Positions 8,876 to 29,053 of a stretch of DNA of 64,000 nt are shown piece after piece (positions within the stretch are counted from its first letter, which is position 1; each line of letters begins with the position of its first letter). Below the pieces are notes generated by a model that saw only the letters and a list, made by a program, of their open reading frames with translations, ran no database searches and had not been told where the DNA came from. Source of the stretch: Candidatus Bathyarchaeota archaeon (lineage in GTDB: Archaea; Thermoproteota; Bathyarchaeia; Bathyarchaeales; DTEX01); assembly GCA_018396635.1 (NCBI GenBank), contig JAGTQE010000008.1, positions 1-64,000 of the forward strand. Reading direction: 5' to 3'. A program made the position numbers and the translations under genes.

Positions 8876-9015
8876 GCCGCCGTTCACGCGCCCAATGGTG
8901 CGTGGACGAGAGCTCAGTTCGGTAGAGCAGCGGGCTTTAAGGGGGTTGAAAGCCCCTTTAAAGGCTGAGGCTGTTAACCCGTTGGTCGACGGTTCGAGTC
9001 CGTCCGGCGGCGCCA
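8876..9015 (+). tRNA. tRNA-Asn (GTT) with two introns, encoded CCA
   Basis: The mature tRNA can be assembled from three exons: 8876-8883, 8911-8936 and 8973-9012, giving 74 bases plus encoded CCA (9013-9015). It has acceptor GCCGCCG/CGGCGGC, D stem GCTC/GAGC, anticodon arm GCGGG-CTGTTAA-CCCGT and T arm GACGG-TTCGAGT-CCGTC. Intron 1 (27 bases, 8884-8910) lies between T8 and A9 and forms the hairpin CACGCGCC/GGTGCGTG. Intron 2 (36 bases, about 8937-8972) lies just 5' of the anticodon; its exact cut is ambiguous because GGCT is repeated at both borders. Both positions are non-canonical for archaeal tRNA introns, whose usual site is 37/38. A possible third intron is discussed in the findings. Confidence 0.85.
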
Positions 9016-26117: not shown

Positions 26118-26271
26118 TGGTGCGGGGGGTGGGATTCGAACCCACGAACCCCTACGGGACGGGATACCCCATCTATCTCAGACCTTGAGTCCTACGCGCA
26201 TATGGTGTGTTCACCATATGCTCCGCGCATTTGGCCGGATTTTTCTATTGACCTGGCTCTGCCACCCCCGC
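26118..26271 (-). tRNA. tRNA-Leu (CAA) with three introns, encoded CCA
   Basis: Four exons give a complete 85-base class II tRNA: 26271-26248, 26230-26223, 26191-26184 and 26165-26121, followed by encoded CCA (26120-26118). The assembled molecule has acceptor GCGGGGG/CCCCCGC, D stem GCA/TGC with the usual GGTCAAA loop end, anticodon arm CGGGA-CTCAAGA-TCCCG, variable arm CCCGTAGGG and T arm GTGGG-TTCGAAT-CCCAC. Intron 1 (17 bases) is in the D loop. Intron 2 (31 bases, with a 10-bp hairpin GCATATGGTG/CACCATATGC) splits the 5' anticodon stem. Intron 3 (18 bases) is at the canonical 37/38 site. Removing fewer introns breaks the D stem or anticodon stem. Confidence 0.88.
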
Positions 26272-27220: not shown

Positions 27221-29053
27221 TTAGGGATACGATACGAGCTCTTTTACTTTTCTGACCATGCCAGCCGCATCTATTCCCTGCTCAGCCATGAGCTCTTCCG
27301 GTCTCCCGGAATGCGGCATCTTTCTAACTGCCAATATATGCGTTTTTATTCCCAATGATGCCACAGCCTCTCCAAGCCCGCCTTCCGGATAATGATCTTC
27401 AACTGTTATTATATGTTTTGTCTCCTCAGCGGCTCTGACCAAAGTTTCAACATCTAACGGTTTGACCGAATATAAATCTATAACCCTAACATTGATGCCG
27501 TCTGCCTTCAGCTTTTCATAAGCCTTTAGGGCTTCATGGACCGTTATCCCAGCCGCTACAATAGTTGCCTCATCATTCCTGCTACGTCTAAGAACTTTTG
27601 AGCCTCCAATATGGAACTCCTCTTGATTATCGTAGATAACAGGGGTTCTAGGTCTAGTTGTTCTAATGTAGGATATGCCCTCATAATTTGCCATAGCGCA
27701 TGTGAGTTTTTCGCAGCTCACAGCGTCACATGGATATAGGACGATGCTTCCATATATTGCGCGGAATAATGCGAGATCCTCCAGCCCCATCTGGGACGGC
27801 CCATCCTCTCCTATCGATACTCCTACATGTGAGCCAGCTATCTTTAGGTTCGCCCTTGAATAGGCAGCCATCCTTATTTGATCATGAGCCCTTGATAGAA
27901 AGCATGCGAAGGATGAGAGGAAGACGTCAAAGCCATGTGTCTGGAGCCCTATAGCGATTCCAACCATGTTTTGCTCCGCAATATAGCATTGTAAGCTCCT
28001 TTCCGGGAATTTGTTAAAGAAGTATATTGTGAATGTGGAGTTTTTGACATCACCATCCAGGACAATCATCTTCTCGTTCTGTTCACCGAGCTTAACGAGG
28101 GCTCTGCCAAAAGCTTCTCTTGTCGCGATCATCTCGCCAACTTTATACTCGGTTCTAATTGAGTACTTTTTACGTGATTCAATCGGAACCTTAGCCTCTA
28201 TAAAGTTTTGTGGCTTAAAGTTAATGTCTTTTATTTTTGGGAGTATTTCCTTCTCAGCTCTGCTTAGCTCCTCCTCACTAAGAGCAGTTCCATGTCTTCC
28301 ATCAACATTCTCGAGGAAGCTTACCCCCTTACCTTTAATGGTTTTCGCAATTATAAAGAATGGCTTATCGGATTTCTTCGCCTCGTCGAAAGCCCTCAAC
28401 AAGTCCTTAACGTCATGTCCATTACACACGGTAACATTCCAGTCAAAGGCTTCAACCCTCTTAGCATATGCCTCCCAATCCCATTGGAACATTGTTGGCT
28501 CGCTTTGACCCAGCCTATTCATATCCAGTATGGCAATAAGATTTGATAGTTTAAGCTTACCTGCCAGGTTAAGGGCCTCCCAAACCGAGCCCTCAGCAAC
28601 CTCCCCGTCGCCGAGAAGGACATAAACCTTTCTATTTATACCTAAGAGTCTCTTGGCATAAGCCATACCTAAGCCTATAGATAATCCTTGACCCAGAGAT
28701 CCTGTTGCAACCCTTATTCCCTTAACTCTGGGAACAGGATGCCCCTCAAGCTCGGAATCAAACTGCCTCAACGTCATAAGCTTCTCTTTTGGGAATACCC
28801 CTATTTCAGCAAGGGCTGCGTATAGAATTGGAGCTGCGTGGCCTTTAGATAAAATGAGCTCATCATTATCCAAGTAATCTATGTGTTTTGGATCTATGTT
28901 CATAACGCTGAAGAATAATACCGCCATAATTTCGGCACTTGACAAACAGCTCGTTGGATGGCCAGATCTAGCCCTTGTGGTTGATCTAATACTATGTAGT
29001 CTCAATATATTTGCAATAGTTTCAAGCCCCTTTCCAACGTTTTCCTCAACCAT
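27221..29053 (-). CDS. tkt: Transketolase, single full-length chain
   Basis: The 610-residue protein contains both transketolase halves in one chain, whereas most archaea encode them as two genes. The N-terminal part has SGHPTSCLSSAEIM, LSKGHAAPILYAAL, GSLGQGLSIGLGMA and the thiamine-diphosphate motif LLGDGEVAEGSVWEAL. The C-terminal part has IAEQNMVGIAIGL (catalytic Glu) and VEDHYPEGGLGEAV. It moves two-carbon units between sugar phosphates and would supply pentose and erythrose-4-phosphate, the latter needed for the aromatic pathway that feeds the trp operon. The ATG at 29053 is the first clear start. Confidence 0.93.
   Translation of the reverse strand: MVEENVGKGLETIANILRLHSIRSTTRARSGHPTSCLSSAEIMAVLFFSVMNIDPKHIDYLDNDELILSKGHAAPILYAALAEIGVFPKEKLMTLRQFDSELEGHPVPRVKGIRVATGSLGQGLSIGLGMAYAKRLLGINRKVYVLLGDGEVAEGSVWEALNLAGKLKLSNLIAILDMNRLGQSEPTMFQWDWEAYAKRVEAFDWNVTVCNGHDVKDLLRAFDEAKKSDKPFFIIAKTIKGKGVSFLENVDGRHGTALSEEELSRAEKEILPKIKDINFKPQNFIEAKVPIESRKKYSIRTEYKVGEMIATREAFGRALVKLGEQNEKMIVLDGDVKNSTFTIYFFNKFPERSLQCYIAEQNMVGIAIGLQTHGFDVFLSSFACFLSRAHDQIRMAAYSRANLKIAGSHVGVSIGEDGPSQMGLEDLALFRAIYGSIVLYPCDAVSCEKLTCAMANYEGISYIRTTRPRTPVIYDNQEEFHIGGSKVLRRSRNDEATIVAAGITVHEALKAYEKLKADGINVRVIDLYSVKPLDVETLVRAAEETKHIITVEDHYPEGGLGEAVASLGIKTHILAVRKMPHSGRPEELMAEQGIDAAGMVRKVKELVSYP

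Follow-up and report, generated by a model that had tools for sequence, protein, structure and literature searches.

Three predicted introns in a tRNA-Leu(CAA) gene and a probable permuted tRNA-Arg(GCG) gene in a bathyarchaeal genome

The window analysed here is a 64,000 nt stretch of contig JAGTQE010000008.1 from a Candidatus Bathyarchaeota archaeon. It contains what is almost certainly a functional, single-copy tRNA-Leu(CAA) gene with three bulge-helix-bulge (BHB) introns, whose excision is predicted from the sequence, in a genome (G000) rich in tRNA introns. A stranger and more surprising object than this gene is found outside the window: a tRNA-Arg(GCG) gene that is probably circularly permuted at 37/38. 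With about 33 introns in 38 parsed tRNA genes, three introns each in Leu(CAA), Lys(CTT) and Ser(GGA), and the permuted tRNA-Arg(GCG), the genome probably belongs to a previously unrecognised Bathyarchaeia lineage of extreme tRNA gene disruption. No earlier archaeal permutation would then be on record in the anticodon loop, and multi-intron and permuted tRNAs would then occur together outside Thermofilum.

The tRNA-Leu(CAA) gene, on the reverse strand, has GCGGGGG and CCCCCGC-A-CCA as its ends (26271-26118); its parts are given in Table 1. The joined exons form a complete canonical cloverleaf of 85 nt, with an acceptor stem of 7/7 pairs, a D stem, a T stem of 5/5, a variable region of 14 nt, the anticodon CAA and an anticodon stem, CGGGA/TCCCG, of 5/5. 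The first-pass annotation had proposed introns of 17, 31 and 18 nt and this mature length; its junctions are identical to the best set found by our solver (see below) and are backed by alleles of related genomes which lack the introns. It also held that any retained intron breaks a stem. This is true only of the 29/30 intron, the other two lie in loops, which they merely enlarge.

Table 1. Location of the tRNA features described in the text. Positions without a contig label (C) refer to the window; the others refer to contigs of G000.
Feature	Position	Strand	Basis and remarks
tRNA-Leu(CAA) gene, unspliced, 151 nt	26121-26271	-	Mature length 85 nt; sequence, solver, relatives
3' CCA, genome-encoded	26118-26120	-	Sequence
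Exon 1 (positions 1-21)	26248-26271	-	Sequence, solver; empty alleles in relatives
Intron 1, 17 nt, position 21/22	26231-26247	-	Solver, relatives, folding
Exon 2 (positions 22-29)	26223-26230	-	Sequence, solver
Intron 2, 31 nt, position 29/30	26192-26222	-	Solver, intron alignment, covariation, folding
Exon 3 (positions 30-37)	26184-26191	-	Sequence, solver; anticodon CAA at 26187-26185
Intron 3, 18 nt, position 37/38 (canonical)	26166-26183	-	Solver, relatives
Exon 4 (positions 38-73)	26121-26165	-	Sequence, solver; anticodon-stem 3' strand, variable arm, T arm, acceptor
tRNA-Asn(GTT), two introns	8876-9012	+	
tRNA-Lys(CTT), introns at 30/31, 37/38, 45/46	C15:10185-10345		Solver; locus L030
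tRNA-Ser(GGA), three introns	C31:59033 region		Solver; locus L071
tRNA-Arg(GCG), permuted at 37/38	C23:32586-32477	-	Locus L125/L177
tRNA-Arg(GCG) 3' half (38-73 + CCA)	C23:32586-32548	-	
tRNA-Arg(GCG) 5' half (1-37)	C23:32516-32477	-	

All three sites have 3-nt bulges and 4/4 central pairs, with site 1 relaxed. Intron 1 has the central helix GGUC (exon)/GGCC (intron) and the bulges AA^U and AA^A; in the window copy the predicted inner helix is absent and the outer helix has 2 bp. Having no inner helix, it is a relaxed, loop-type BHB, and would therefore depend on a permissive splicing endonuclease (EndA). In intron 2 the central helix is GCGC/GCGU and the bulges are GG^A and AG^G; the inner hairpin has 10 bp (GCAUAUGGUG/CACCAUAUGC). 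Intron 3 pairs CUCA (C32-U-C-A35) with UGGG, with bulges AG^G and GU^A, and uses the anticodon stem as outer helix.

Neither of two standard searches finds the gene: ARAGORN calls a single tRNA in the window, a different one, and the Rfam scan at gathering thresholds misses the gene at 26271-26118. Such omissions affect the counts of "missing" tRNAs in Bathyarchaeia MAGs. We have used a purpose-written solver, which removes up to four insertions, scores each by BHB geometry (a 4-bp central helix between exon positions -6 to -3 and intron positions -6 to -3, and 3-nt bulges with the cut behind the second base) and scores the product by cloverleaf features. The best answer has introns at 26247-26231, 26222-26192 and 26183-26166, with a score of 26.8. 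These are the junctions of the first-pass annotation, each with 4/4 central pairs. The runner-up (24.1) gives an identical mature sequence. When the gene interior is shuffled 160 times, the best score is 23.9, below that of the real gene, and when the exons are fixed and letters are shuffled within the introns, all three 4-bp central helices are kept in only 2 of 200,000 trials.

Related genomes contain many versions of this gene. All 81 relatives searched match it at least in part, mostly in the T arm and acceptor, which are common to other tRNA-Leu genes; a pattern for the anticodon region catches Leu(CAA) in 44 of the 81, and these were parsed with the same solver. Odd-junction parses outside the host's family (L162, L164) and a second, chimeric copy in G012 were left out of the counts. 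Every clean parse gives the same 85-nt cloverleaf. All three introns are found in G000, G001, G002, G005 and G006, which belong to one genus; only the 37/38 intron in G004 (host's genus), in G014 and G018 (host's family) and in further families; 21/22 and 29/30 without 37/38 in G011, G012, G013 and G020 (host's family); 21/22 and 37/38 in G024 and G031 (another family); and only 21/22 in several families. G023, G030, G042 and G071 have no intron. Empty alleles thus exist at all three sites, in intron-free or intron-poor orthologues whose exon joins are those predicted for the window gene. For intron 1, GGTCAA is joined to ATGCG in G014 and G018, and TTGGTCAA to ATGCG in G004. The excluded G012 copy (L171/L152, C21:2900-3300) is an apparent chimera, in which the 5' half of another tRNA-Leu is joined to intron 2 and the 3' part of Leu(CAA), by recombination or misassembly; a normal copy is found on C44 of the same genome.

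The 29/30 intron is restricted to the host's family, being found in 9 of 257 Bathyarchaeia genomes in a class-wide pattern search. Alignment of these nine introns shows seven inner-helix pairs changed on both sides, with a covariation of 0.276 (0.136 ± 0.027 in shuffled alignments, 0/500 reaching the observed value; at most 0.111 in slid controls). The 10-bp hairpin noticed in the first pass is real, and it covaries. Related genomes show at least five intron combinations, of which a single genus has two, and the three introns appear to have been gained and lost separately from one another. The triple state would have been assembled within the host's family, since the 37/38 and 21/22 introns are spread across the order and the 29/30 intron in this family only; this reading is drawn from distribution rather than from a tree. 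With so many combinations, a single gene makes it possible to trace how tRNA introns are gained and lost and in what order they are assembled. As a lineage marker, a use proposed earlier, the triple state holds only loosely, because it is found in five of the six host-genus members where the gene was found, and relatives from within the family are without one or two of the introns.

Another reading accepts just one or two of the insertions as introns, and has the D-loop insertion kept as a long mature D loop. Intron 1 is indeed the weakest BHB, as its helices show. Nevertheless, relatives with otherwise near-identical exons lack it, and across about 25 copies its length (12-25 nt) and sequence vary, yet in most of them the 3'-end tetramer, two bases before the junction, pairs with the exon GGUC. 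We consider a retained D-loop insertion very unlikely. A decayed pseudogene with random insertions would agree with the silence of ARAGORN and of the Rfam gathering scan. It is extremely unlikely, given perfect acceptor, anticodon and T stems, the CCA, three insertions which are all BHB-compatible, orthologues with the same three sites in four other genomes, and further genomes whose versions are intron-free. Nor was another Leu(CAA) gene found in the G000 genome, where a second, intact copy, named in the first pass as evidence against the proposal, was searched for.

The genome has 1.45 Mb in 35 contigs and, by the estimate given with the bin, is 99% complete and 3.3% contaminated. A Thermoproteales gene or contig in the bin, for which this contamination leaves some room, has a practically negligible probability: The adjoining transketolase (27221-29053, reverse strand), at 82-88% identity along most of its sequence, is most similar to those of Candidatus Bathyarchaeota MAGs, one of which has its own three-intron Leu(CAA), and genomes of the same genus share the three-intron gene. 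In that MAG (JAGTQL010000017, QZM_A2_bin_23; L086) the tRNA gene is, as in the window, on the same strand as the transketolase and downstream of it; the distance in the MAG is about 2.5 kb. The transketolase matches and this synteny indicate that the host is a member of Bathyarchaeia, not of Thermoproteales. We should also note contig C27 (3.3 kb), on which tRNA-Val(TAC) and tRNA-Ser(GCT) occur as second, diverged copies in addition to those on C9 and C7; these duplicates are probably a strain variant within the bin.

As for splicing, the Leu(CAA) precursor would fold into three BHB-type sites, at 21/22, 29/30 and 37/38, and we infer that all three introns are excised. Folding of the full precursor at 37 °C gives the central helices of sites 1 and 2 a probability of about 0.85 each, lower at 75 °C, so that computation predicts both to form together. 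The BHB of site 3 is absent from the predicted ensemble in every splicing state examined. For tRNA anticodon arms, however, energy models that take no account of modification or tertiary contacts can be wrong. Intron 2 would most likely leave earlier than intron 3 or at the same time, because site 3 has an outer helix of only 3 bp while intron 2 is present; thermodynamic folding neither backs nor contradicts this order for site 3.

G000 contains two PF01974 (EndA) proteins, and its relatives usually have two as well. The one at C12:53889 (189 aa) is the catalytic paralogue, with the EHAPY motif; the one at C23:34634 (193 aa) lacks the catalytic histidine when aligned to 1a79. The C12 protein aligns end to end with Aeropyrum pernix EndA alpha (PDB 3p1z; E 9e-45), and its crenarchaea-specific loop, YGKPLGIPKPKSPDF, aligns without gaps to YGQPLDVEKPRGADF of A. 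pernix, with K42 opposite K44. Two paralogues, one of them without the catalytic histidine, and a loop lysine beside the active site are consistent with an (alpha-beta)2 enzyme, predicted to be a heterotetramer able to cut relaxed BHBs. This type is associated with non-canonical introns (PMC6379350, PMC4090602), and the earlier suggestion that the gene marks the EndA type agrees with the two paralogues. On the other hand, no match to the ligase RtcB (PF01139) is found in the assembly, nor is there one to TIGR01209, a family of RNA ligases. Of 121 sampled Bathyarchaeia, 110 do have RtcB, among them four members of the host's genus, so its absence from G000 is likely to be an assembly gap, the alternative being another ligase.

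Interrupted tRNA genes are common elsewhere in this genome. Among the 38 parsed genes, 19 have no intron, 8 have one, 8 have two and 3 have three; this census is solver-based and uncurated, some of the genes were read manually, and several isoacceptors are absent from it. The three-intron genes are, according to the solver, Leu(CAA), Lys(CTT) and Ser(GGA). By eye, introns of other tRNAs show no obvious similarity to those of Leu(CAA). In the window, tRNA-Asn(GTT) has a 27 nt intron just after position 8 and a 36 nt intron near 37/38 with a 13-bp hairpin; Rfam gives only a partial match to it, at 8911-9004. tRNA-Trp(CCA) (L037, C1:174807 region, reverse strand) has two introns, and the 60-nt one, at 37/38, contains GATGA- and CTGA-like motifs, a candidate likeness to guide RNAs. 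Archaeal tRNA-Trp introns can double as C/D guide RNAs. Finally, a tRNA-Thr(CGT)-like 3' half (L124, C1:197626, reverse strand) lies about 190 nt from the contig end, preceded by sequence which does not complete a tRNA; it may be an integration remnant, a long intron or a split half.

In the tRNA-Arg(GCG) gene the 3' half lies upstream of the 5' half, with a spacer of 31 nt. A perfect BHB spans the ends, with CUGC/GCAG as central helix, bulges GG^A and AA^A, and an inner helix GUUGGAG/CUCCAGC. The permuted gene is found in 13 of the 257 Bathyarchaeia genomes, ten of them in the host's genus (10 of its 11 members) and three in a sister genus of the family. Spacers range from 9 to 34 nt, and the mature tRNA has 76 nt in each of the 13. 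Inner-helix cells are 95% paired, with compensatory changes, vs. at most 52% when slid. Relatives G007, G011, G012 and G073 have a contiguous, normal gene. The 3' half on C23 was first read as part of a split tRNA. This is disfavoured, and permutation favoured, because the complementary 5' half lies 31 nt downstream and the 9-nt spacers in relatives leave no room for a promoter.

Archaeal tRNAs with three introns have been documented, as have introns at 29/30 and at 37/38 (PMC4090602, PMC4390854, PMC8450103), therefore the kind is known and the lineage is new: The three-intron Leu(CAA) is a known anatomy, in a lineage without a report in the literature searched. This search, which took in only a minority of subscription papers and so falls short of proving absence, gave no account of either tRNA introns or permuted tRNAs for Bathyarchaeia. 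The earlier statement that such genes are rare outside Thermoproteales is fair against the published record, but the host belongs to Bathyarchaeia and its genome is itself rich in tRNA introns. Our results extend this richness, with a matching EndA type, to a large, mostly uncultured archaeal class.

Known three-intron cases are tRNA-Glu(UUC) of Pyrobaculum calidifontis and tRNA-Pro(UGG) of P. islandicum (PMC4390854). As in Thermoproteales, up to three BHB introns are found per gene, at canonical and non-canonical sites mixed, and intron density is similar: About 0.87 per gene in G000 (parsed genes, solver-based) vs. a Thermoproteales average of 0.84 (PMC8450103). The class and the tRNA are different, and the likeness drawn here is one of gene anatomy. 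Caldiarchaeum subterraneum, also outside Thermoproteales and rich in tRNA introns, likewise has multi-intron tRNA genes, with introns in the D arm and elsewhere whose presence varies among close relatives as it does here (PMC3293823). The genes listed are Leu(UAA), Glu(CUG, as printed) and Thr(GGU), the last of which has two introns; in our genome it is Leu(CAA), with three. The predicted bathyarchaeal EndA resembles that of A. pernix (3p1z) in the EHAPY histidine of the catalytic subunit and in the position of the loop lysine. Archaeal permuted tRNAs have been described only from Thermofilum pendens, in two genes, at 59/60 (PMC3218864, PMC3978253). The tRNA-Arg(GCG) gene shares with them a 3' half before the 5' half, a short spacer, a BHB at the joint and an intron-rich host (PMC3218864), but its joint is at 37/38, not at 59/60.
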